Part shown: positions 1 through 28,160 of the stretch, piece after piece | Numbering within the stretch: the first letter of the stretch is position 1 | Layout of the letters: each line of letters starts with the position of its first letter | IMG/VR virus record: IMGVR_UViG_3300032217_000923 | Span: 1 to 30,171 of that record | Strand: one strand, 5' to 3' | Length of the DNA: 30,171 nt | Source: a virus | Position numbers and translations under genes: made by a program | Notes under the pieces: generated by a model | What the model was told of the DNA's origin: nothing | Seen by the model: the letters and a program-made list of their open reading frames with translations, nothing else | The model's database searches: none

Positions 1-225
1 ACTTAATTTAATACCAGCTTCGTGTAACTTATTTAGACGTTTAATTCTTTCTGCATAAGCACGTTCTTCTGGAGTATCGGGAGTTTTTGCTTTAGTTCCA
101 CCAGTTGAGCCAGCTTTATTGCCTGTAGGTCCACCGCGGCCTACAGTAGACGACAATTCAGATAACTTTTTAAAGAATCTATCTAAGGATTCATTAAGTT
201 CGTCTTTTGTTATTCCATCACTCAT
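1..225 (-). CDS. Small hydrophilic protein, partial (C terminus off the left edge)
   Basis: An open frame reads leftward from ATG at 225-223 and stays open to base 1, giving 75 codons with no stop, so the gene is cut by the window edge. The visible protein begins MSDGITKDELNESLDRFFKK, then has a Gly/Thr/Lys-rich linker (about residues 29-50, with GRGGPTGNKAGSTGG) and a charged helical stretch (PEERAYAERIKRLNKLHE). A weak SD (AGGA) lies 10 bases before the start. I do not recognise the family. It is divergent from the gp26-like gene, and the 226-318 gap separates the two. The clean start, lack of stops and phage-like composition support a real gene, but no function can be given. Confidence 0.6.
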   Translation of the reverse strand, partial: MSDGITKDELNESLDRFFKKLSELSSTVGRGGPTGNKAGSTGGTKAKTPDTPEERAYAERIKRLNKLHEAGIKLS

Positions 226-318: not shown

Positions 319-1224
319 ATGGATAACTCCAACCCACTTAATAGACCAATAAAGTCAGCTTCGGTAAATCCGTTGTCACAATATTACCGTCGACCAGGTA
401 CCTATATTGAACTTCCAAGCCAAGGAAGATTTTATAAAACGCCACCAAAGCTTTCCGACAACGGAGAATTGGCTGTTTATCCAATGACTGCTAAAGATGA
501 GCTGATTTTAAAAAATCCAGATTCGTTGCTCAACGGCGAAGCATTGAAGCATGTTATAACTTCTGTATGTCCAGACATTGCAAACGTAAATGAAATTCCA
601 ACAACTGATGTTGATGCAATTTTAGTTGCAATGCGTATGACCAGCTATGGTGACGATATGAGCTTGAACATTCATCACGGATGTAATCAAAGTAAAAGTA
701 AAGATCAAAATAAAAGTCAACATGTGGTTGTTGGACTTGGTAGTGTATTAGGTACACTACGTAATGTGCCCGATGACGTTGGCATTGTTACATTAAGTTC
801 TGGTATCAAAGTAAATTTAAAACCATACACACTGGAAGCACAAAGTAAATTGTTACGTGTGCAATTTACTACCATGCGTCAATTACAGGCGGCTGAAGTA
901 GACGAAAGAATGACAATTGATCAAAAGGCTGCAATTGCCAACAAGGGTTACAATGATTTAGTATCATTGAGTCAGGAAACAATGGGCGAATGTATCATTA
1001 GCGTTATGTTACCCGACGGTACAGAAGTATCAAACTCAAGCCATATCGCTGAATGGGTTAAGAATTTAGATCGAGCAAGTCATGAACGACTAGATCAAGA
1101 AGTAAAACGTTTTAACGAATATGGTATCATTAAAACAATTAAGGTACATTGTGATTATTGCGGTGAAGACTACACCAGTGACATGTTGTTTGACCCAACA
1201 AGTTTTTTCGAAATCGGCTCTTGA
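319..1224 (+). CDS. gp26: gp26-like baseplate hub / tail assembly protein
   Basis: A 301-aa protein with the profile of the T4-like gp26 baseplate protein family. The N-terminal signature is GTYIELPSQGRFY followed by YPMTAKDELILKNPDSLLNG. Next comes a helical middle, then a C-terminal CDYCGEDYTSDMLFDP segment with a CxxC pair. An earlier Cys and a His pair (IHHGC) could complete a metal site. The frame is open from TTG 280, but ATG 319 is the better start because AAGGA at 306-310 lies 8 bases upstream; TTG 280 has no SD. T4 gp26 acts in assembly of the baseplate hub. The stop TGA (1222-1224) shares one base with the next ATG. A slippery heptamer and stem-loop at the 3' end suggest that some ribosomes continue into the next ORF (see findings). 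It is longer than T4 gp26 (about 208 aa). Confidence 0.8.
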   Translation: MDNSNPLNRPIKSASVNPLSQYYRRPGTYIELPSQGRFYKTPPKLSDNGELAVYPMTAKDELILKNPDSLLNGEALKHVITSVCPDIANVNEIPTTDVDAILVAMRMTSYGDDMSLNIHHGCNQSKSKDQNKSQHVVVGLGSVLGTLRNVPDDVGIVTLSSGIKVNLKPYTLEAQSKLLRVQFTTMRQLQAAEVDERMTIDQKAAIANKGYNDLVSLSQETMGECIISVMLPDGTEVSNSSHIAEWVKNLDRASHERLDQEVKRFNEYGIIKTIKVHCDYCGEDYTSDMLFDPTSFFEIGS

Positions 1225-1244
1225 TGTTAGGTCTTGATAGAGCC
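1203..1244 (+). promoter_or_regulatory. Candidate programmed -1 ribosomal frameshift site
   Basis: In the gp26 reading frame the codons run AGT TTT TTC GAA, so T1203-C1209 forms the canonical heptamer T_TTT_TTC. After a 6-base spacer (1210-1215), GGCTCT at 1216-1221 is perfectly complementary to AGAGCC at 1239-1244, with a 17-base loop that contains the gp26 stop and the next ATG. A -1 slip reads CGA AAT CGG CTC TTG ATG without a stop, directly into the downstream ORF, and would give a 374-aa fusion. The downstream ATG has no SD of its own. Heptamer, spacer and stem-loop match the standard layout of -1 sites in phage tail-assembly chaperone genes; no expression evidence is available here. Confidence 0.55.
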
Positions 1245-1442
1245 AGCATTGCTCGCTTTATCGAGGGTATAGAAGCAGACTCAAGAGCCTTAATAAGGGA
1301 AGTGTCAGAACTAAGTGTATGGGGTTCTATTAATCCAGAGACCATATGGGACATGACATATTTAGAAAGATTAGTCCTTAGTGAAACAATTAAAGAACGT
1401 ACAGAAACAATGTATGGTAAGAAAGGTATTGCTAGAAGATAA
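1224..1442 (+). CDS. Small gp26-coupled ORF, possible gp51-like or frameshift extension
   Basis: A 72-aa ORF starting MLGLDRASIARFIEGIEADS and ending KERTETMYGKKGIARR. It is predicted to be all-helical, with a conserved-looking IWDMTYLERLVLSETIKERTE block. The ATG overlaps the gp26 stop by one base, and no SD precedes it, so it depends either on coupled re-initiation or on the -1 frameshift described at 1203-1244. In T4-like marine phages a short gp51-type hub-assembly factor lies next to gp26, so that is one candidate. The W..M....L..L...I..R style also resembles the second frame of tail assembly chaperones (G-T type) in other phages. T4 gp51 is much longer (about 249 aa), so the gp51 name is only tentative. 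The ORF is followed directly by a perfect palindrome. Confidence 0.65.
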   Translation: MLGLDRASIARFIEGIEADSRALIREVSELSVWGSINPETIWDMTYLERLVLSETIKERTETMYGKKGIARR

Positions 1443-2042: not shown

Positions 2043-2471
2043 TTATAGTTTGTTTATGATATGTGAGCCATGTACGCGAACCGAAATTTGACCGTTATAA
2101 TAATCAGTTGACTCTAAAACTTTTCTTTCAAATTGTTCTCGAGCTTCAATATACGAACACACTGCTTTTGAATTGCAGTAATGTAATATTTCGCGTGTAA
2201 ATTTTTCTTTGCCTAAGGTTACTACATCTTTGTTTAAGTGATCGTTTGAGCCATAATACTCTCGCCAATCAGAATCAATTTTGCTACGAATCTTTTTCTT
2301 CTTCTTGGTACCATTTTTAAGCTTTACTACCTTGTAGGAGGTTTTAGCAAACTTAGCTAACTTTTTACCTACATACTTTCTTCCGTCAACTGTGTTTGTT
2401 ATTAAGTAGACAAACCCGACGGTGTCGTCGGGTAAGTCCATAACTTCAGTGCCTTGATATGACCAAGTCAT
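2043..2471 (-). CDS. GIY-YIG family endonuclease
   Basis: A 142-aa protein with the GIY-YIG nuclease core. GFVYLITN (residues 19-26) supplies the GIY strand and KYVGKK (32-37) the YIG strand. A Lys-rich stretch follows (about 50-60, KLKNGTKKKKK), then WREYYGS (69-75). SYIEAREQFER carries the expected metal-binding Glu (E109 or E112), and YYNGQI (124-129) the terminal Asn. Stand-alone GIY-YIG nucleases in T4-like phages are often homing-type enzymes; no separate DNA-binding domain is visible here, so specificity is unknown. It is the last gene of the minus-strand operon. The annotated ATG (2471-2469) lies inside a hairpin and has no SD. An internal ATG at residue 11 (2441-2439) with AAGG 10 bases before it is a plausible alternative start. 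The gene's 3' end abuts the candidate structured RNA. Confidence 0.8.
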   Translation of the reverse strand: MTWSYQGTEVMDLPDDTVGFVYLITNTVDGRKYVGKKLAKFAKTSYKVVKLKNGTKKKKKIRSKIDSDWREYYGSNDHLNKDVVTLGKEKFTREILHYCNSKAVCSYIEAREQFERKVLESTDYYNGQISVRVHGSHIINKL

Positions 2472-16400: not shown

Positions 16401-16618
16401 AAACTTTCTTCTTCACTGACTTGGCAGCATGGGTTCATAAAGACCTGGGCGGTATTATTAGCAGTATTGTTCTGGTACCAAGACAATCAGGATTATTATC
16501 AAGCGATTTATTTCAAATTAAATGCGACAATGACGAATTGTTTATTAGTAGTGCTACTGTGGCCGACGTTGAAGTTATTACAAGCCTAGTTGCACCAGTT
16601 GTTATATCACAAGGTTAA
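13433..16618 (+). CDS. gp6: gp6 baseplate wedge protein
   Basis: A 1061-aa protein. The N-terminal block YLVNPDFKAYDFESLRTALL, then YINSSEYVALIDTLAFMGQNLAFR-type sequence and LARQLGYKP-type helix (residues about 22-110) is the gp6/GpJ-like wedge signature. Later comes a gp6-like ASRTAASQDRMITAGDYN (about 420-437) and a long C-terminal part. gp6 makes the ring that ties the wedges together around the hub. It is much longer than T4 gp6 (660 aa), as in marine T4-likes. The start is the ATG overlapping gp25; the gp7-like ATG follows the stop by one base. Confidence 0.92.
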   Translation: MSQTRRLGQLYAAETWLNNYRYLVNPDFKAYDFESLRTALLNHVQVNYPEDFNDFINSSEYVALIDTLAFMGQNLAFRSDLNLRETYLDTARVRGNVLSIARQLGYKPFRNGNAGGFLRVSAIKTTQNLYDSQGANLAGQIIVWADPLNPDFAEQFTTILNEALNKGNPVGRPISSIISNGVVRQLYQIDQPDNRSMVETFTLSARNSTSYDCELLPMMIDADSHLAVESEPNPYGYMTALFNNDGTGYANVSNGWFFMFKQGNLKYEDYVLTSRVENRVIDLAGSSINETDVWVQSIDGQGKILDTWTQVPSTVGKNIAFNAINKDTRKIYEVITRENDAISIKFGDGTFAEIPVGNIRIWYRQSANESVVFTTNDVSGLQVSIRYVDGQGLEQDLICTLDLINVVSSTASESIDQIKNRASRTAASQDRMITAGDYNIFPEGRIGGVDKIQTINRTYAGQSMYADIQDPTSTYRPVLTFADDGFLYTTETTFQDSISEIAGTNGIITWAENLLLNRGTHQLYYKNREPKTYPRVTIASSVVSILWKNIDYTTNSSHGYFYSSDDVNKTPIRIGKGSVILEQRSLRKNSLVNFGTKWSKILDVYREGFGLADNDGNNSGLRANGLGAVFLDGIVADGATAEKWIPNLRTVFNLNEVNDITAQLNSQQSFGLKYDQKKDRWFVITADNIDINKDFEPDTITPMADAGWLIRFYYNAGMWSAEVRKDQTVFGSAGQLDFHNQRFGTALDQTTKRLIKDSVKFLAVADGQIVGQSELDVADYIRLDDGRYDPKRVSVLLPGLLDTLVPKNPDVISALVGLTLDTNLKMKRQEFVDAPGQYTIVPVETNGDFNVTGRQKLKVQYNHVPLRDNRVDSSTTNIIDMFVLTSSFNQSFRAWIAAGAKDGLRPLPLTTYGLGKLMQGIEQYKSVSDSIVYHPVNYKVLFGSGSDLRYRAAFRVTKSDGTRISDAEIRSRVIASVNRYFAADNWDFGETFFFTDLAAWVHKDLGGIISSIVLVPRQSGLLSSDLFQIKCDNDELFISSATVADVEVITSLVAPVVISQG

Positions 16619-16619
16619 A

Positions 16620-19600
16620 ATGGAAAAGAACCCAAAATCACTAACTCCTTCTGATGCAGGAATTAAAACATATCCAGGTCAAACCAATGGAGAATATGTT
16701 GCTCCATTGGTTACAGGTTTATTACCAACCATCTTTCGTACTGATACAAATAAAAAAGTATTAAGTGCAGTAGCAGAAGATTTATTCCAACCAAGCGCCT
16801 TGGAAGATTTAAATTTTTCAGTCGGACGCAACACAAGTAAAACTGTAGTAAAAGATTATTTGCCACATCCAACGGCACGTAGACAATTAGAAGCAGGTCT
16901 AGTAGTTTATACTAACAATGGTGCAAAAGCTCTAACAGCAGACAACATTGCTGACGCATGGGAATTGAATGATCGCTCCAACGAAACTCCTGTTCCTGTT
17001 AGTGTACTTGACCTTCCCATTGATTCAGATAAATTTGTCAATTGGACAGATTACTATTGGATTGAACAAGGGATGCCGGTAATTTATATCAGTGCAGTTG
17101 AAGAATTGATTGATATACAGAATGATATTATTGGCAAAAGTAATTATGTAACACCAGTTCAGTCCAATGGAAAACAATTAGAATTAAAAAATGGAATGAG
17201 AATTGTTTTTCAAGTTCGAGAAGGCCAGGCCAGTAGCATCAACGGAGATTATACCTTTACTATGATTGCCAATGGTGAAGTTGAACAGTCATTGAATGTT
17301 GAATTAACAGCATATAACAAAACTAATGTTCGCATTAGTATTAACAATGAAAACAAACAAAACGGTGTAGATTTCATTGTTCTTGGAAATACAATTAAAT
17401 GGTTAACAACTGGACCGGCAGCCGGCGCCACAATTACAGTTGTTTGCAACAATTTCTTTTTAAATGATCCAGCTTTAAATACTCTTCGCAGATGGCAAGT
17501 AAGCGGAGTTGGTTCTCACAGTGGTATTCAATTATTAGGTCGCACACATCAGTATACAAATACAGTATACAGTAAGGCAGTACAAACCCTTTGGGACGAA
17601 ACAGCAGTGTCGTGGGACAGTGTTGAGTGGGATGGTGCAATTCGTGGTATAAATCAAAAGCATTATGTGTGCGAACAAGTTGGTGCTGAGAATCGTAATG
17701 CACACAGCCGAGTTAATGTATGGTACCATAAAACTGTAATACAACAGGTTGCAGATTTCTTAGGGCTAGAATTTAGTGCAATTGCCAACAACAATAATAA
17801 AGCATCGCGCCCAATTGTTGAATTTGATAGAACATTAGAATTATTCAACAACGGCGTAACATATTGCGCCTGGCCAAATCTAGTGGTAGATAGCAATGTT
17901 GTGGCTCCAATTGATATTGTTAATATTAAGTTAAAGACGGAACGATCGTTGGCACTTGACACACGGTATGTAGATTTAATCAACAAGTTAAAGTACGCCC
18001 CAGACCTTTATGTTGAGATTAAATTCAAGGATCGTTTAAAGATTGCAGTTGACAAAAACAGAGTGTCTACTGTTGATTTTAAGAAAATTGATGACGAAGA
18101 AAATAAAGTAATATATGAAGTAAAAGGGAACAGAATTGAATGGCTTGCTGGCCACAGTCCGGCACCAGGCCATACTGTTACGATAAATTATAGAATTGAA
18201 GGTGTGCTATTAAAGGATCTAAGAATTTTATGGTTGGCTGATGGAAATTTCAAAGACAAGATTCTTACCTATTTTAATAATGGTGATGTAACCAGTTTGT
18301 TTCATTATGAACATCCGTCAGACGGCAGAGCAGTAGTAGTTGATACTCCGTATTCATCAAGCAACTATTACCTCAATGAATTTTATTGGTTCAATGGAGA
18401 AGCAAAGTTAGCCAGTTTTCGCTCAACTTGGACTCAACAACCTCGTTTTGAATTATATGATGCAAACCAGGTCAAGTTAAGTACAAACCCAATCAGACCA
18501 CTTGTAATTAATACCACAATTATTAAGGTTGCTGACGGAGATCTGTACGACAATGAGTCCGGTTATAATTTAGAATTTTTGCCTAGTCAATTTACAGAAC
18601 TAAGCAAGGATAATACTATTAAAAATGCAATGTATGATATTGTTTATAATCATACATTGCATAAACAATCAACGTATGAAGAAAATCGCAGTACTAAAAA
18701 CATTCGCGGACCATATTCCTTTAGACGTTTTAAAGGAGGTCAGCTTGCTGACGAATTAAGTATTGGCTATCGTAAAGCCTGGTTTAGACTGCGTAGTTGG
18801 GTAACCCAACTACATGATGTTAATGGGCAAACTGAAGTTCAAATTGATAACTCTGCATGGCCTACATACGAATGGGTACTACATACCAAAGATGGAAATC
18901 TAGTAGTTGCTCATTCTGATGACAATTCACAGGTGGTTGACAATCATGCAATTGCAGCCTTAGGCGAGCCAGTAACTTTTAAAACTTACATTTCTAGTAA
19001 GCCAACCCAAGCAACAATTACAAGTCAAGACGGTACAACCGTTACTGCTCCAATCAATCAGAATGGTGTCTTTGGTTTCACTGTCAGTGAAACTTCGGGA
19101 AATTTGCTTACAGTATCAATAGCTGGGAAGAAATTTTATATCAGAATCATTAATGTCAAGAATGATCCAAGAAATATTAAGTTAAAGTTAAACGGATTAC
19201 CAATTGATTATGCATTTAATATTACTCGTAATACCGATCTGACCATTGACTCTATCAGAGTATTACTCAACGGCATTGGTAAACTAGAAATATGTCACCA
19301 GGGTATCAATACACCTGCTGGCAGTAGTATTTCTGCAATTCCAGGATTTGAACTTAATCCCACTCAGGATATTAGTCTAGGTGAATTTACAGTCAGTCGT
19401 TTAGCATCATCAATGCTTGCAAATATTAACAGTAATAAATTATTTGACGACCAACAATGGATTGAGTGTCCTCAACTGCCAGCATTTAATGGCGCACTAA
19501 TGGTAGATCATAGTGCAATGCGTAGCGCCTGGGCTAGCACAAGATTGAGCCCAACAGTTCAAGACGTTGCAACAGCACGTTCCGTATCCGCTTGGCGTTG

Positions 19601-22600
19601 GTATAGAAAATTTATTTCTAAGATTGAGTCTAATAACAATCTATTAGACTTACAACAATTTGGACCACGTCGTGGTTTAGATAGAATATTAGAAGAACTA
19701 CTATTAGGAATCACATTCAGTTCAGCTGATGCAATCAGTGGCGTTGCATTTAGTACAAATGCAATGCGCTATGCTGGATATGTTGCTGTACAAAATACAA
19801 ATTATCTAATCAATACCGGAACTGATAGTATATACCAAGGCGCTTACGGAACAGACCATGTATATGTTTATGTCAACGATGAATTAATATCTGCATCTCA
19901 GTTTAGTATTGTCAACAATCAGATTATCTTCAATGAAGCATTGACCATTGGAGACCGTGTTGATATCTATTACGGTAATGCATTACAATTATTAACTGGC
20001 ATCCCTGCAAGTCCAACCAAGCTAGGCCTAGCGGAATTATACGTTCCACAAATCGTAACCGAGTCATGGGGAGATAATACAAGTAAGTTTATACAATTAC
20101 ATAATGGATCTAAAATTGCATTATTTGGTAATTCAGAAGAAGATATTAGAAATAAAATTATTTTAGAGTTTGAAAATAGAATCTACCTAGGATGCATATT
20201 CCAGGGCAACACATTGAATAGTAATTATTTGGCCACCACAGTATCGCCAACTATAGCAAATGCACAAATTGCCTGGTATGCAATGAACAACATAGATTAT
20301 CGTGACCGTAATGATTATGTCTCAGACAATGCATGGACTTGGAACTACAACGGCAAAAGCTGGAGAGCCTTTTATATTGATTTATTTGGAACTGACCAAT
20401 TACATACATCGCCATGGAAAGCCTTAGGGTATGCAGATGCACCATCCTGGTGGGAGTTGCATTATTCCTGGACAAATGCAAGTAAACGTCAGGCCCTGAT
20501 TAGAGCACTGCAACATGGTATTGTTACCGAACCAGGCACACCAGAAACCACAGTACCTGAATTTGCAAGAAGCTTTACAACTTATCCAGTTAATCAATTT
20601 GGTAAACTATTGGCTCCTGGCGAATGGAATATTAATTTTGCACCAACTGCTGACATTGCACGTTTACCTTGGGAAATTGGAGCACTAGGTCCTGCTGAAT
20701 TAGCATGGCGTCGTAGTGTTGCAGGTCACTGGGCAACTGTAATGCAACCATTGGATGATTATTCTAAAATCAGTGATTTTGTTGAATCTGGGGTTGATCC
20801 GTTTGTTAGAACAATTCCAACAAATAGTCCTAGAGCCAGGGGAGATATTACATTTAATCCTAGTTACTTTGCACAAAGTAGACCAGTAACTGGAATTGGT
20901 GCAATGCTGTTTGAAGCGTATAGAGAATTTAACCTACCTGGTGAGAATCCATTGGAAGAATTGATGTCAATTGCTCCTAGACTAGAATTTGCCTTGGGAG
21001 GATTTGCGGACTCGCGTATGTCATTGAAGATGTATTATGCAAAGTTTCAAACTGGTAGTTATGTGCCAGATGAAGATTTCTTCATGACATTAAACAATGG
21101 TGTGTCAATGGAGCAATTACGATACAGTGCAGTACGACTTGAAAAAGATGACGCCGGATTCCGAGTATACGGATATGATCCATCAAATCATTGGTTTGAT
21201 GTATTTGCACCAGTTGTTGATAATTCAATAAATCAAATCTCTTCTCGTCGAAGCATTTCAACCAGCTCGGGTGATTTTACAGAATACTTAAATTGGATTC
21301 CAACTAGTATTCGTATACCATACGGCACATACATTACTAATAAACAAGATTTATTGACTCTTTTACTAGGATTAGGAGAATGCCAAAAATCAAAAGGCCT
21401 GTTGCTTGACGAAATTAACAGTCGAGGCACAATTACAGACTGGAAACAGGCTGCACTAGATGCATTTACCTGGATTGATGAACAATGGGACAACAACAAC
21501 TATTGCATAATTGGTCCTGTGACAAACAATGGATTAAAAATTTATCATGCCACTGGTACTCTAGATAGATTAGATGCTGATTTGGGACGAACTGGCAAAA
21601 TTTTATTTGCCAATGGACGTTCGGCATTGGCCAGTGAGTTATTGATTACTCGTGATTATGAAAAAAATGTAGATAAGATTACACCAATCACAGGCGAACA
21701 GATATTGTTTGCAGATCTAGCACAACGCGAATACGAACATGTTGTTTATGTGAACTTGGTTACAAAGTTTGGCGACTTGGTTGCAGATTTACAAACAAAC
21801 AATAGACTTGATGTATTATCATTGAACGGCCGACGTACAACTAAGTGGGACGGACGTCCACATGCTCGAGGTGTTATAATTCAAAGCGATGGGCTATTGC
21901 CTGGATTTGATAGTTTAAGTAATGATGTATTAAAAAGCCACTTTCCCGAGAACAATGCATTTGATACATATAAATCAATAATTGCTCGCGGTGATGTAGT
22001 ACCAGTCAAAGCCACTGTATTAACTGAGCTTATCCAAGATAAAACACAATCTCATTTATATCAACAAGGTCTGCAAAGTTCTGCAGGCACCAACTTGGCA
22101 ATTAATGCAATATTTAGAGACGTTAATATTGATGTTCCTGGAAGAAGCCAGGACGTTGTTGTCAATGAAGAATGGTTATTTAATACTGGAAAATTTGGCA
22201 ATATCAAAGATCAAAAGATATGGGAATTTGAAGTTCGTAAAAGTGACGTATCAACTAATCGTCAAATTGTAAGATTAAGCAACGGCGTTGTTGACAAGCT
22301 CAGTGACAATATCATTGATATTAACATGAATGACCGACGCTGGGTTACTAAGCCGCAAGATCCATTTAACTTTATTAAGATTAATAGAGCAACAAACACC
22401 ACTTTAGAACAAACACAGTCATGGCTGCCAAGTGCAGGTGTAGCCAGTATTGTTGATGTAGATATTCAACACAGAAATATTTCGTCAGTTACAATTGATG
22501 ATTTTAAAAAAATAGACCAATCAAATAAATTTGAAAACTTAGACAGTATTTCATATTATGATACGTTAACAACACGGGATATTTTTAGTGCTCAAGGATT

Positions 22601-25600
22601 TAGCAGAAATAAATCATACAATGTTGATGACCTGGCCTGGAGTGGTGGCGTACTATTTAGAGCCAAAGCCAATATTCCTGCTAGTAGTACAAGTGTAATT
22701 GATCCAGATTTGTATGAACAAGTGGATATTGATTCTCGCCTGCTTCCTGTAATTTGGGTCACTGATTTTGCATACAGTTTAACAAACAAAAAAGGAAGAC
22801 AATACAGAGGCGCATGGTCGCCTGGAGTTGATTACAGTATAAATGATGTGGTATACCGCAACGGCTTGTATTATACCTGTACTCATGCTCATACTTCATT
22901 GGGTCAGTTTATTCAAAGTCAATTAGATACATTAACTATCATTGATGGCGGCGAAGGCTACACGGTCAGTGACACTATTAGCTTTGTATCAGATCAAGGC
23001 ACAGGTGCATCGGCCCGCATCTTAGAAATTGCCAATGGTAAAATTGCGGCTTTCACAGTTAATCGGTCTGGTACAAATTATGAAACCAAACAGACCTACC
23101 TGAAAGTAAATGGCCAACGTTTAGAAGCTTTCAATTACAAAATTAATTACAAAAACATAATCGAAATAGGTGCTAACAGTAACGGAATCATAAGCAAAGT
23201 AAAACCAACTGCACCTGGAGTAAGCAAATTTACAATTGGTAATAATTATACCAGAAACAACGTTGAAATAACTATTGTTGGCAATGGAACCGGTGCTGTA
23301 TTGGTTCCGATCATTGAAGACCAAATTCAAACAGGAGTTGTGTCAAAGAAAGGAATTATTCAATCGTTGACGTTAAAAAACGGCGGTCTAGGATACAGTG
23401 TTGGCGATGTTGTACGTATCCGTAATACTAATAATGCTGACTCGCCGGTTGATGCTATTGCCACAGTAGCCACAGTTGCATCTGTGCAATCAGCAACAGC
23501 TACCGCAGTTGTGCAAAATGGTTCTGTTACGAATGTTAATGTAGTTCAACCAGGGTCAGGATATGTAACACCACCAACAGTTACTATTGCACCACCTAAC
23601 AATCAAGGCACAATTACAAAAACGGTCAATTATTCACCATCAGTTAGTTTTGAACAAGAAAATAAATTGGTCGGGCAAGATATTGCCAATCAATTGATAG
23701 CATGGATTGATGGATTTAATACCAATAGTTTTGACATTGATCCTGCGGTATTTAAAAATGTATTATACAATCTTGAAGGTGATGAAACTATTGCCACCAA
23801 GTGGGGAAATGTAGGTGTTCAATTATGGCAAGCTGATACAGTTGTCAATACACTAATTGATCAGGCAAATATAGCAATGCAAGGACATATTGGTTCTGCA
23901 AATACCTACGTTGTTGATAACGTACCGCGCACATTGCGTCAAGTGACCAATGGAGAATTTACGGTCAATGGATTGACTTATACAAAGAGTTCAGTAGCCC
24001 GAAGCGGATTGAAATGGACTCCTACCACACAAATAACAGCTGGACTACGATCACAATTAATTGACAATGCAGTACAGGCATACATGGGACTTGGAATGTC
24101 TAATGGCGACAACGACACTACTTCTTTTTATAATGATCCTTCTAATATACAAATTGTAAGAACAGAAGTTGGTCATATTTTAGATCTAATTGCACAGGCC
24201 TATACAAATACAGCTTTTGGTGCAACAGTAAATTTATTCAACTATACTGTTAAATCAACTGTTACTCCAAGACAAGCAGTTGCACAAGCTATCCTATCAG
24301 CAAATGGAGGCAGCATTGCATCCTATGTTATAGTAGATGCAGGTGCTGGTTATGTTGACTCATTGCCACCAACTGTTACTGTTTCTGGACAATCTAGTGC
24401 AAGTAAAGCAATTGCAACATTAACATTAACTTCTCCTGGACAAAGTTATTTGTCAGGCGGCACTTATCAATTGTCAGGCGGCACTGGTACAGGCGGATCA
24501 GTTACTATAACAAGCGTAACTGACGAAGTTACTACTACTAAGATCTTGGATAACGGAGTAATCACTGGATTTACAGTTGCCAATGGCGGTAAAAATTATA
24601 CGTCTCCTGCTACAATTAGAATTTCTCGCAAGCCCACTGTATTTTTCTCTGACAGCAACAAGCAAGAGTATCGCAGGGCATTTGCATCAGTTCTTAATGG
24701 TCGTGTTAATGAAATTACTATTAATCCAAATGACCAAGGCAACGTTGTAACACCAAGTGATATTAAAATTCAAATAATTGGTAACGGTCTTGGTGCGATT
24801 GCAAATCCAATTATTACCAATGGTAAATTAACTGGAGTCGAGATTGTATCTGGCGGCAGCGGATATACCACAGCACCACTGGTCAGAGTCATTGATCCAT
24901 ATTGGGCAAATGATGTAATTGAAATTAGTGTTGCGCTAGAAACTATAACCGCAGTTACTGATACACTGGAAGTAGGTAATATTGATAGTATTACAATTTA
25001 TCCAAATGCAAGAAATGTTAACTTTAGCAATACTGCTACCGTAGAAGTGGTTGATCCAACTGGAAACGGCAACGGGGCTCAAATAGGAGTCAAGATTGCA
25101 AATGGTATTATATCTAAGGTAACATCACAATTTACCAACGACACAGGTGGTTCAGGATATGTAAGTTCGCCTACTGTAGTAGTCAGTGGCGGGTCATCTA
25201 CAAATCCAGCAATATTACAAGCCAATATTAAATCATTCTGGGTACTTAAAAACTCTGGATATGGCTGGAATATTCTACAAACATTTGGCCCAATATATGT
25301 TGAGGAAGTGTGTCCTAATGCATTAAACACTGGATTAAACGAAAGTAAAGTTACTTTTGCAAGCCCGCATGGTTTAAGAGAAGGCGAATATTTTGTATTG
25401 TCAGGCTGTAACGATGGCAGTTACGATAGTGTACATGCAGTCAAGGCAGTGGTTGATGACTATAATGTAACTATAGCCGCACGTAGCTCGCAGGATGCAA
25501 TTGCATACAATGTTGTAGCATTCAAGCTACTTCCAGTGAAATTTGATTCAACGTATGACTACGAAGAAACTAAAAACTATTATGACTGGAAAGCTGGAAT

Positions 25601-28160
25601 GAAAGCTTATGTTGATAAAGATGACAACGAAGTATTAACCGGTATTCAAACATATAACTTTAAAGTGTATGAGTTCCAAGATGATGGAACAGGAACTCTA
25701 ATTTCAACGCTGGTAGATAATGTATCTCAAGATTTTATTGATACCCAAAGTTTCTATAAGGCTCAAGTTGTTGATACTGCTAGCCAAGAATTGTTGGCAA
25801 CACTTGAAATTTATGATCCATATAAAGGACAAATAATTGATGAAGTGGCACAATACATTAGCTATAAAGAACCAATTGACCCAGCTGTTTATAACATTGA
25901 TGATTTGGATCAACTGGATAGCTCTATTATTGAACCATGGGATTTAAGAAAACTTGGCACACTATGGTGGGATATCAGCTATGTTCGTTACAATGAATAC
26001 GAGCAAGGCACACTTGAATATCGTGCAGTTAACTGGGCAAAGCAAGCTGTTGACAGCGAAGTACGAATATACGAATGGGTGTCAAGTATGGATGTTCCAT
26101 CATTTGAAACTCCAGGCATTTATCTAGATGACAGCAGTGGCGTTGGACAACCACGCTATTGTAAAATTGACGAGACTACTCCTGAAGGTGCTACAATAAC
26201 AATGTATTATTATTGGAAACGTAATGTTACATCATTGCCAACGTATACTGCACGTCCATACACTGCCAAGGCAATTGAAGGTACATTAAATAATCCAGAT
26301 TCTGAAGGAGTTGCTTGGATTTCGCCAATTGATAACGATTTATCTTCTGCATCATTTTTAATCTCTAATATACAAGATTATTTTACCGGCAGAGACAGCG
26401 TAATTATCAGAGTTGAACAGGATACTCATCCAGAGCAAAAACACACCACTGGCGTCTTGGTCAGTGAAGGAATGACAGGTACAACGATACCCGAATACCT
26501 ATATATTCGTTTACGTGATTCTTTAGTAAGCTATGATGGGTATCGTCATGCAGAACCAATCTTTACCTGGGATTCAACTTCTAGCTACAAGGAAGGTGAT
26601 ATAATTTCATATTATGATATCCGTACCCAGGCATCTATTAGAAAAGTAACTGTTCCATCAGATTATCACGGATTAGATATGCCAATTCTAAAAACAATTA
26701 ATGGCACTCGGAATAGTGTAACTCAATGCTGGTATCAGTCGGATGCTGACGGTCAATCCTTCAGTGATGGGCAGAGTCGATATGGTGTGTTCAAAGTATT
26801 AAATGATATACCAGCAGGTACATGGTCAAGTATTAGACCATCACTTGGTCTAATACAAGGTGCATTAGTCAAAGACCTAATTGAAGACAATAGATATTAT
26901 CTTGTAACAGAACATCCGCGACGTGTGCCCGACAGTAGATTGCATCCAACCCGCAGATATGGTAACAGTTATGTACCTTATCCACAAACTTGGTTCAAGG
27001 ATTTACAACGAGCTCGTCGAACTTGTTTGGAAGCAGTCAATGATAAATTATTAAAAATTGATGTTGTAAGTAAGCCTGATTGGGACAAGAATTTAAGAAC
27101 ATATATACCATTGCTTGGCCGTTTCATCACTAAATCTTTTGAATCAAGTGGAGTTTTAGACAGCCAATTTTATTTGCACTATGTATTAAAACCTGCTGAC
27201 ACAATCCGTGTAAAAGTAAATGGTACAATAATTGAGCAAGGTACAGGGTTTGACTTAATAAATGATTCACTTGTAATTAAGATTCCTTTGGCAAGAGGAG
27301 ATATCATTGATGTACACATTTCAACAAACCCAATAATTTATCTTGATCCTGAATCTAATAGATCAACTAAAATTTGGGATTATGCTGATTATGTTGTTGA
27401 CAACTACATAGCTGGCAATGAAACTATTCGAGTTACAAAGTTTGACGATTTAGTAGATTATCCAAGTGCAACAATTTTTGCTATTGTTGATGATAATAAT
27501 ATTACCCAACAAGTTTATAAAATAAACAATGGAAAATATGATCTAATCTATAGAAAGAACGGAACCATCCAATTTGTTGATTTATGGTACATGGAAGGAT
27601 GGGATACCAAGCTATGGGATAGCAGCCAATGGGACCGCGATTACAGTGAAATGTTTGGTATTATACTTAATGCTCTTAGAGAAAACATCTTTATTGGTAG
27701 TGATATTGGATACTTTAACTTGACATTCTTTGATATGGTACGTGAAAGCTTGTCGCAGATTCCGGCCGCCGATTGGGTTTACAAAACAACATACTTGTCA
27801 GTGAACCAATCAAACAACAATGAACTTGAAGAAATTGCAGTATACTACGATAAGAAAGATAAGCTGATTAAAGATTACCTCAATGAGGTAAAACCATATC
27901 ATAGCAAGTACATTGATCAAGGAACCTTTACAAGTTCTATGCAAGAGATAGATACATCTATCAATGAAAGCATTAAAATGCGTGTAACAGATATAGTATA
28001 TCTAGCCACAGAACAAGGCTCTACTAATAGGGTCATTGACTACAAACGAAATGGCAATCCAGTAACTGTCAATGTGCCAAATCGCATTTTAACTGAGTCT
28101 GGTAATTTAATTATCATAAAAGATGAGGTTACAGAGCACGTATTAACCGACGAAGGTTAA
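16620..28160 (+). CDS. gp7: Giant gp7-like baseplate wedge/structural protein
   Basis: A 3846-aa structural protein, nearly four times T4 gp7 (1032 aa). The start is ATG 16620, with AAGG 5 bases upstream and one base after the gp6 stop; the frame is open from 16590, but that would overlap gp6. Parts in order: an N-terminal block (LLPTIFRTDTNKKVL, FSVGRNTSK) with DKFVNWTDYYWIEQG; a central conserved-looking core at about residues 1225-1540 (IGALGPAELAWRRSVAGHWA, FALGGFADSRMSLKMYYAKF, GSYVPDEDFFMTLNNG); GGxGY-type beta repeats at about 2100-2870; and a C-terminal FFDMVRESLSQIP with LNEVKPYHSKY. Position after gp6 and the N-terminal style point to gp7, which nucleates wedge assembly in T4. The rest may include fused domains taking over gp8 or gp10 roles. 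Structural role is firm; the exact T4 name is less so. Confidence 0.75.
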   Translation: MEKNPKSLTPSDAGIKTYPGQTNGEYVAPLVTGLLPTIFRTDTNKKVLSAVAEDLFQPSALEDLNFSVGRNTSKTVVKDYLPHPTARRQLEAGLVVYTNNGAKALTADNIADAWELNDRSNETPVPVSVLDLPIDSDKFVNWTDYYWIEQGMPVIYISAVEELIDIQNDIIGKSNYVTPVQSNGKQLELKNGMRIVFQVREGQASSINGDYTFTMIANGEVEQSLNVELTAYNKTNVRISINNENKQNGVDFIVLGNTIKWLTTGPAAGATITVVCNNFFLNDPALNTLRRWQVSGVGSHSGIQLLGRTHQYTNTVYSKAVQTLWDETAVSWDSVEWDGAIRGINQKHYVCEQVGAENRNAHSRVNVWYHKTVIQQVADFLGLEFSAIANNNNKASRPIVEFDRTLELFNNGVTYCAWPNLVVDSNVVAPIDIVNIKLKTERSLALDTRYVDLINKLKYAPDLYVEIKFKDRLKIAVDKNRVSTVDFKKIDDEENKVIYEVKGNRIEWLAGHSPAPGHTVTINYRIEGVLLKDLRILWLADGNFKDKILTYFNNGDVTSLFHYEHPSDGRAVVVDTPYSSSNYYLNEFYWFNGEAKLASFRSTWTQQPRFELYDANQVKLSTNPIRPLVINTTIIKVADGDLYDNESGYNLEFLPSQFTELSKDNTIKNAMYDIVYNHTLHKQSTYEENRSTKNIRGPYSFRRFKGGQLADELSIGYRKAWFRLRSWVTQLHDVNGQTEVQIDNSAWPTYEWVLHTKDGNLVVAHSDDNSQVVDNHAIAALGEPVTFKTYISSKPTQATITSQDGTTVTAPINQNGVFGFTVSETSGNLLTVSIAGKKFYIRIINVKNDPRNIKLKLNGLPIDYAFNITRNTDLTIDSIRVLLNGIGKLEICHQGINTPAGSSISAIPGFELNPTQDISLGEFTVSRLASSMLANINSNKLFDDQQWIECPQLPAFNGALMVDHSAMRSAWASTRLSPTVQDVATARSVSAWRWYRKFISKIESNNNLLDLQQFGPRRGLDRILEELLLGITFSSADAISGVAFSTNAMRYAGYVAVQNTNYLINTGTDSIYQGAYGTDHVYVYVNDELISASQFSIVNNQIIFNEALTIGDRVDIYYGNALQLLTGIPASPTKLGLAELYVPQIVTESWGDNTSKFIQLHNGSKIALFGNSEEDIRNKIILEFENRIYLGCIFQGNTLNSNYLATTVSPTIANAQIAWYAMNNIDYRDRNDYVSDNAWTWNYNGKSWRAFYIDLFGTDQLHTSPWKALGYADAPSWWELHYSWTNASKRQALIRALQHGIVTEPGTPETTVPEFARSFTTYPVNQFGKLLAPGEWNINFAPTADIARLPWEIGALGPAELAWRRSVAGHWATVMQPLDDYSKISDFVESGVDPFVRTIPTNSPRARGDITFNPSYFAQSRPVTGIGAMLFEAYREFNLPGENPLEELMSIAPRLEFALGGFADSRMSLKMYYAKFQTGSYVPDEDFFMTLNNGVSMEQLRYSAVRLEKDDAGFRVYGYDPSNHWFDVFAPVVDNSINQISSRRSISTSSGDFTEYLNWIPTSIRIPYGTYITNKQDLLTLLLGLGECQKSKGLLLDEINSRGTITDWKQAALDAFTWIDEQWDNNNYCIIGPVTNNGLKIYHATGTLDRLDADLGRTGKILFANGRSALASELLITRDYEKNVDKITPITGEQILFADLAQREYEHVVYVNLVTKFGDLVADLQTNNRLDVLSLNGRRTTKWDGRPHARGVIIQSDGLLPGFDSLSNDVLKSHFPENNAFDTYKSIIARGDVVPVKATVLTELIQDKTQSHLYQQGLQSSAGTNLAINAIFRDVNIDVPGRSQDVVVNEEWLFNTGKFGNIKDQKIWEFEVRKSDVSTNRQIVRLSNGVVDKLSDNIIDINMNDRRWVTKPQDPFNFIKINRATNTTLEQTQSWLPSAGVASIVDVDIQHRNISSVTIDDFKKIDQSNKFENLDSISYYDTLTTRDIFSAQGFSRNKSYNVDDLAWSGGVLFRAKANIPASSTSVIDPDLYEQVDIDSRLLPVIWVTDFAYSLTNKKGRQYRGAWSPGVDYSINDVVYRNGLYYTCTHAHTSLGQFIQSQLDTLTIIDGGEGYTVSDTISFVSDQGTGASARILEIANGKIAAFTVNRSGTNYETKQTYLKVNGQRLEAFNYKINYKNIIEIGANSNGIISKVKPTAPGVSKFTIGNNYTRNNVEITIVGNGTGAVLVPIIEDQIQTGVVSKKGIIQSLTLKNGGLGYSVGDVVRIRNTNNADSPVDAIATVATVASVQSATATAVVQNGSVTNVNVVQPGSGYVTPPTVTIAPPNNQGTITKTVNYSPSVSFEQENKLVGQDIANQLIAWIDGFNTNSFDIDPAVFKNVLYNLEGDETIATKWGNVGVQLWQADTVVNTLIDQANIAMQGHIGSANTYVVDNVPRTLRQVTNGEFTVNGLTYTKSSVARSGLKWTPTTQITAGLRSQLIDNAVQAYMGLGMSNGDNDTTSFYNDPSNIQIVRTEVGHILDLIAQAYTNTAFGATVNLFNYTVKSTVTPRQAVAQAILSANGGSIASYVIVDAGAGYVDSLPPTVTVSGQSSASKAIATLTLTSPGQSYLSGGTYQLSGGTGTGGSVTITSVTDEVTTTKILDNGVITGFTVANGGKNYTSPATIRISRKPTVFFSDSNKQEYRRAFASVLNGRVNEITINPNDQGNVVTPSDIKIQIIGNGLGAIANPIITNGKLTGVEIVSGGSGYTTAPLVRVIDPYWANDVIEISVALETITAVTDTLEVGNIDSITIYPNARNVNFSNTATVEVVDPTGNGNGAQIGVKIANGIISKVTSQFTNDTGGSGYVSSPTVVVSGGSSTNPAILQANIKSFWVLKNSGYGWNILQTFGPIYVEEVCPNALNTGLNESKVTFASPHGLREGEYFVLSGCNDGSYDSVHAVKAVVDDYNVTIAARSSQDAIAYNVVAFKLLPVKFDSTYDYEETKNYYDWKAGMKAYVDKDDNEVLTGIQTYNFKVYEFQDDGTGTLISTLVDNVSQDFIDTQSFYKAQVVDTASQELLATLEIYDPYKGQIIDEVAQYISYKEPIDPAVYNIDDLDQLDSSIIEPWDLRKLGTLWWDISYVRYNEYEQGTLEYRAVNWAKQAVDSEVRIYEWVSSMDVPSFETPGIYLDDSSGVGQPRYCKIDETTPEGATITMYYYWKRNVTSLPTYTARPYTAKAIEGTLNNPDSEGVAWISPIDNDLSSASFLISNIQDYFTGRDSVIIRVEQDTHPEQKHTTGVLVSEGMTGTTIPEYLYIRLRDSLVSYDGYRHAEPIFTWDSTSSYKEGDIISYYDIRTQASIRKVTVPSDYHGLDMPILKTINGTRNSVTQCWYQSDADGQSFSDGQSRYGVFKVLNDIPAGTWSSIRPSLGLIQGALVKDLIEDNRYYLVTEHPRRVPDSRLHPTRRYGNSYVPYPQTWFKDLQRARRTCLEAVNDKLLKIDVVSKPDWDKNLRTYIPLLGRFITKSFESSGVLDSQFYLHYVLKPADTIRVKVNGTIIEQGTGFDLINDSLVIKIPLARGDIIDVHISTNPIIYLDPESNRSTKIWDYADYVVDNYIAGNETIRVTKFDDLVDYPSATIFAIVDDNNITQQVYKINNGKYDLIYRKNGTIQFVDLWYMEGWDTKLWDSSQWDRDYSEMFGIILNALRENIFIGSDIGYFNLTFFDMVRESLSQIPAADWVYKTTYLSVNQSNNNELEEIAVYYDKKDKLIKDYLNEVKPYHSKYIDQGTFTSSMQEIDTSINESIKMRVTDIVYLATEQGSTNRVIDYKRNGNPVTVNVPNRILTESGNLIIIKDEVTEHVLTDEG
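18625..18662 (+). repeat. Perfect 14-bp inverted repeat inside the gp7-like gene
   Basis: ATGCAATGTATGAT (18625-18638) and ATCATACATTGCAT (18649-18662) are exact reverse complements with a 10-base loop. It encodes residues reading NAMYDIVYNHTLH. A stem this long is unlikely by chance in 30 kb. Confidence 0.75.
24450..24485 (+). repeat. 15-base direct repeat within the beta-repeat part of the gp7-like gene
   Basis: TTGTCAGGCGGCACT occurs at 24450-24464 and again at 24471-24485, a 21-base period in frame. It encodes LSGGTYQ then LSGGTGT and looks like a recent duplication inside the GGxGY-type repeat region. Confidence 0.7.
26830..26856 (+). repeat. Perfect 11-bp inverted repeat inside the gp7-like gene
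   Basis: GTATTAGACCA (26830-26840) and TGGTCTAATAC (26846-26856) are exact reverse complements around a 5-base loop, in codons for SIRPSLGLI. No T-run follows, so it is not an obvious terminator. Confidence 0.7.

Follow-up and report, generated by a model that had tools for sequence, protein, structure and literature searches.

The window analysed here is the whole of a 30,171-nucleotide stretch, positions 1 to 30,171 of the IMG/VR virus record IMGVR_UViG_3300032217_000923. It carries a gp26-like gene, whose ATG at 319 is preceded by AAGGA, followed by an overlapping open reading frame in the -1 register (Table 1). The initial annotation of this DNA had read TTTTTTC as the slippery sequence T_TTT_TTC in the gp26-like frame, and the heptamer does lie in that phase, with gp26-like codons TTT at 1204-1206 and TTC at 1207-1209. 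The -1 frame, which was said to be open past the gp26-like stop, indeed continues as far as the TAA at the end of the extension. Reading both frames also recovers the two product sizes given at that time, a predicted 301 aa for the gp26-like frame and a predicted 374 aa for the -1 fusion, with a common N-terminus.

Table 1. Features at the junction, with positions in the window
Feature	Position	Strand	Remark
Tape-measure gene N-terminus, divergent, running past the window edge	1..225	-	BLASTP E 2e-5 to L007 protein
gp26-like gene, predicted short tail assembly chaperone (TAC-N), 301 aa	319..1224	+	PF12322, phrog_150
Slippery heptamer T_TTT_TTC	1203..1209	+	in phase in 87/87 junctions
-1 frame extension, predicted long-product C-terminal domain (TAC-C), 77 codons post-slip	1209..1442	+	ends at TAA 1440-1442
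Spacer GAAATC, 6 nt	1210..1215	+	between heptamer and outer-helix 5' arm
Outer helix 5' arm, GGCUCUUGA	1216..1224	+	9 bp with 1281-1289
TGA stop of the short product	1222..1224	+	within outer-helix 5' arm
Inner hairpin, inside the 56-nt loop	1232..1266	+	arms 1232-1243 and 1255-1266
3' arm of the 6-bp stem	1239..1244	+	not conserved
Outer helix 3' arm, UCAAGAGCC	1281..1289	+	9 bp with 1216-1224

The gp26-like protein matches PF12322 (T4_baseplate) with an E value of 6.5e-14 and 52.6 bits against a cut-off of 24.5, and phrog_150 (baseplate hub) with an E value of 2.8e-19. PF12322 also matches T4 gp26 and gp51, of which gp51 has an extra C-terminal part. The extension of the window, searched alone against PHROG and Pfam, gave no significant match; a profile of the fusion family, which is alignable across 13 phages, was colinear with T4 gp51 at a weak score (hhalign probability 15, E 0.0018). 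The N domain and the extension were modelled separately. The N domain was modelled at pLDDT 84, and its fold matches are predicted T4-like baseplate hub assembly proteins (E 8.7e-25); a fold search of the PDB with this domain returned nothing significant and no close solved structure. The extension model (pLDDT 89) is all helical, and Foldseek returned a weak match to the hub assembly catalyst of Acinetobacter ZZ1 (E 2.8). The N domain model, spanning window positions 319-1221, also gave weaker Foldseek matches (E 1e-6 to 3e-4) to giant-phage proteins of about 500 aa from Ralstonia RP12 and RSF1 and Erwinia Special G, which are possible distant chaperones.

The gp26-like gene adjoins a divergent tape-measure gene. 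The window copy comprises the N-terminus only, and its identity comes by way of the corresponding divergent neighbour in the related locus L007, which matched seven PHROG families (best phrog_991, E 3.4e-15), in six cases a tape-measure family.

On the other side of the junction, an inverted repeat (GGGCGAAGTACTTCGCCC, 1457-1474) lies shortly past the extension stop; it has no T run and is absent from the terminator scan. The surrounding stretch of about 600 nt (1443-2042) contains no convincing ORF. Most relatives share 67-80% of its nucleotides, even at loci where the gp26-like proteins are only about 38% identical. Within it, positions 1837-1976 on the minus strand match the Rfam family RF01718 (Polynucleobacter-1 RNA) at 94.7 bits. 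The 2010 description presented this as a Burkholderiales or fresh-water RNA (PMC2864571). RF01718 also scores above gathering in seven related phage loci (L007, L055, L061, L066, L067, L072 and L073) and was not found in L081, L082, L083 or L087; here the RNA looks phage-borne, beside a small ORF at 2043-2471 (minus strand). Farther along, window positions 16590-28160 on the plus strand form one ORF of 3856 codons.

Conservation of the slip site and the second frame

A scan of viral contigs yielded 80 loci at 73-36% protein identity, and tblastn against phage records yielded 94 records in which jumbo phages predominate, with matches that include Atu_ph07, Phosso, PA5oct-like phages, SCTP-2, XacN1 and RaK2-like phages. 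The initial annotation had referred to related marine T4-like phages. The window falls instead in a huge-phage clade, in which the nearest named phages are Atu_ph07, Phosso and the PA5oct-like phages; marine T4-like cyanophages carry the same slippery site. We read the junction in 78 viral contigs, 8 named jumbo phages and the window, giving 87 junctions that do not count as independent events, as 64 distinct 105-nt regions are left once duplicates are removed. In an alignment of 14 sequences, no stretch was sufficiently conserved to serve in a search for further related loci.

The heptamer alone is weak evidence because X_XXY_YYZ heptamers often occur in frame in a window so rich in AT, at about 60 per 9461 codons; T_TTT_TTY occurs in frame a single time, at the junction. 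Judged from the aligned genes, the unusual feature is the conservation of the heptamer rather than its presence. Every one of the 87 junctions reads NNT TTT TTC or NNT TTT TTT at the same FF codons. The preceding codon takes seven forms (AGT 67, ACT 9, GAT 5, CAT 2, AAT 2, GCT 1 and TAT 1) and ends in T each time, whereas T-ending codons make up only a third in these genes. The heptamer is retained down to about 25-35% protein identity, and both it and the -1 relation stay constant while the zero-frame stop lies 1 to 11 codons past the slip, depending on the lineage.

Because the site is a run of six to eight T, the frame could also be changed in the transcript, by slippage of RNA polymerase on the T run. 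Most sites, however, have only six T, and the run keeps a constant phase, with a third-base T before TTT TTY, which transcript slippage would not need. The covarying RNA helix described below, at a spacing suited to the ribosome, also fits translation better, and we regard slippage by the polymerase as most unlikely.

The second frame has the marks of a coding sequence. It is open in 84 of the 85 untruncated relatives, and its median dN/dS across 42 distinct close relatives is 0.16, as against 0.93 and 1.38 in the other two frames of the extension, each of which has more than five stops. By this comparison the -1 ORF is under purifying selection. An origin of the second frame by decay or sequencing error within a formerly single gene is hardly credible: only the two-frame arrangement itself speaks for it, and that arrangement recurs in 87 junctions with the second frame under selection.

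Two relatives depart from the common pattern. Locus L069 (3816 onward) has an in-frame TAG at extension codon 14, where L070 has CAA. Recoding of TAG to Gln in L069 is unsupported, and a change of code is unlikely because the adjoining tape-measure gene has no in-frame TAG. Cyanophage S-SCSM1 (L092, 2150-2374) has the same heptamer with the extension in the +1 (equivalently -2) frame, apparently through a small insertion relative to SynMITS9220M01, which would represent either a sequencing indel or a -2 shift.

A coding second frame might also belong to a separate small gene, translated by termination and reinitiation at the overlapping TTG (1221) or ATG (1224). In favour of such a gene, the close clade has a TTG that overlaps the stop, the window has an ATG after it, and the GenBank records of several phages list the ORF on its own. 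An in-frame ATG is, however, present within the first 25 extension codons in only 35 of 85 relatives, and in MIJ3 the extension has no ATG, GTG or TTG among its first 60 codons, so that independent initiation is unavailable there; together these observations argue against independent translation of the extension. The conserved FFR.RLL residues, moreover, run from the slip site and precede any start codon, and reinitiation would leave the invariant heptamer unexplained. We rejected independent translation of the small ORF as the main route on the basis of this start-codon survey, and consider reinitiation highly unlikely.

RNA structure downstream of the heptamer

The initial annotation had described a 6-bp stem in which GGCTCT (1216-1221) pairs with AGAGCC across a 17-nt loop. 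Both arms are present in the window, but the stem is not conserved. It was rejected as the stimulator, with 61% of cells paired and no two-sided changes. Alignment of the junction across relatives had been proposed as the means of checking the frameshift; in that alignment the heptamer (87/87) and the -1 relation (84/85 open) hold, and this stem does not.

A search for helices 3' of the heptamer pairs the same 5' arm with a later 3' arm: GGCTCTTGA (1216-1224) and TCAAGAGCC (1281-1289) match perfectly around a 56-nt loop, which encloses an inner hairpin. Both helices are present in the fold of 1210-1295, which has a minimum energy of -33.4 kcal/mol (z -4.3). Across 59 aligned relatives, 92.1% of cells in the outer helix are paired and two-sided changes occur at 4 pairs, GGCTTTTG/CAAAAGCC being one example. 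When the partner was slid by 1-3 columns as a control, these counts collapsed. Covariation of the outer helix extends over much of the clade. The inner hairpin is paired in 71.8% of cells across relatives, with two-sided changes at 7 pairs. Where it is found, the outer helix begins 4-7 nt past the heptamer, mostly at 6 nt, and its 5' arm contains the stop codon of the short product in the close clade. Stimulatory structures, which are not obligatory, are looked for 5-9 nt downstream of a slip site, and the window has a 9-bp covarying helix at +6.

Protein conservation is a confound here, since the 3' arm of the outer helix sits in conserved codons. Codon bias within that arm and the rarity of matches under randomisation both count against it. 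The Ala codon of the 3' arm is GCC in 56 of 56 cases, compared with 42 of 214 elsewhere in the extension, and Arg is encoded there by AGR in 45 of 45, compared with 160 of 412 elsewhere. Randomisation of synonymous codons matched the outer helix 8 times in 1000 for the window, 0 in 1000 for L077, 4 in 1000 for Atu_ph07 and 1 in 1000 for Phosso. The helix exceeds synonymous randomisation in most lineages and is marginal in MIJ3 (60/1000) and Vibrio 2.275.O (29/1000). Because the outer helix is absent from CBB, Munch, SCTP-2 and L066, and no more than marginal in MIJ3, the stimulator is not universal. RaK2-like phages lack this helix. An Rfam search of the frameshift region returned no family match.

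On balance we favour the view that a conserved stimulator, not described before, drives the frameshift of this clade. It would consist of an outer helix of 8-13 bp with an inner hairpin, set 6 nt from the heptamer and kept by compensatory change and biased synonymous codon choice, with sister groups having other local hairpins or none. This covarying two-helix element is the part of the arrangement most likely to be new, and may be undescribed.

Proposed frameshift and its relation to known tail chaperones

Every comparative test that was run supports the initial proposal that a -1 frameshift joins the gp26-like gene to the next ORF. Reasoning from these sequence comparisons, we consider it very probable that the junction directs -1 programmed frameshifting and thereby yields a short and a long tail assembly chaperone of 301 and 374 aa. 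Most ribosomes would read the gp26-like frame to the TGA and produce the 301-aa protein. Some would pause on meeting the outer helix, with their P and A sites on T_TTT_TTC, and slip back by one base, with the pairing on UUU/UUC being re-formed on UUU/UUU. These ribosomes would then continue in the -1 frame to 1442 to give the 374-aa protein, which is longer by a helical C-terminal domain. Homology would make the two products the short (TAC-N) and long (TAC-NC) chaperones that load the tape-measure protein. Slippage, its efficiency, its stimulation by the helix and the chaperone function are all predicted.

The chaperone reading is supported by its fit to the family membership, the predicted fold and the tape-measure neighbour. 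In CBB, the gene beside the gp26-like gene and small ORF is well covered in virion mass spectrometry; CBB_249 and CBB_250 are not on the virion list (PMC5259590). A chaperone would be expected to be missing there, although such an absence carries little weight and CBB is a distant relative.

Frameshifting in chaperone genes, for which the initial annotation had cited lambda G/GT and P2 E/E', is textbook knowledge (PMC5009743), and in those systems, as proposed here, the gene for the short chaperone has a -1 frameshift close to its end, by which a C-terminal domain is added. The same 2016 review named T4 as the exception to frameshifted tail chaperones (PMC5009743). T4 gp26 and gp51 were proposed as its tail assembly chaperones by Vladimirov, Gautam and Davidson (2022, Virology 566:9-15), as cited in PMC10885494 and PMC12846349. 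The initial annotation did not recall frameshifting as established for T4-like phages; in its passage on the subject, PMC12846349 names Vladimirov et al. (2022) as the source for poly-T signals of -1 shifting in the TAC-N genes of T4-like phages, and PMC10885494 mentions some T4-like phages in which a short gene accompanies a fused long one.

The T4 pair resembles the products predicted here in its PF12322 N domain, in comprising a short form and one extended by a C-terminal domain, and in its part in tail and hub assembly. Unlike the single gene of the window, with its predicted frameshift, T4 has two separate genes on opposite strands. The abstract by Vladimirov and colleagues reportedly describes frameshifting as apparently conserved in several T4-like groups. 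Among the Kyanoviridae, P-SSM2, S-SM2, S-T4, S-CAM8, S-RIM8, SynMITS9220M01 and S-SCSM2R have the identical T_TTT_TTC at the end of a gp26-like gene with a -1 extension, and for several T4-like cyanophages, P-SSM2 for example, the annotation given to the -1 ORF is gp51 or baseplate hub assembly catalyst. In contrast to the window, most of these cyanophages lack the long-range outer helix, and some have short local hairpins. Conserved GTTTTT and comparative support for a poly-T -1 frameshift are likewise described at the TAC locus of Vandenendeviridae and Andersonviridae (PMC12846349); these are different families, in which the TAC gene lies directly upstream of the tape-measure gene, whereas the two genes are divergent in the window. 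Full-text literature searches, with most subscription journals outside their coverage, returned no paper on the slippery site in jumbo phages. Judged by its conservation, the -1 frameshift signal in the T4-type chaperone gene of huge phages is real, and the kind of frameshift is already known.

Several GenBank records either list the -1 ORF as a small gene of its own or omit it, and for this reason neither annotations nor peptide databases contain the long chaperone. The same heptamer stands at the same codon in the huge-phage clade, RaK2-like phages, Atu_ph07-like phages and T4-like cyanophages, and this shared position suggests that frameshifting may be the older arrangement and the separate genes 26 and 51 of T4 the derived one.
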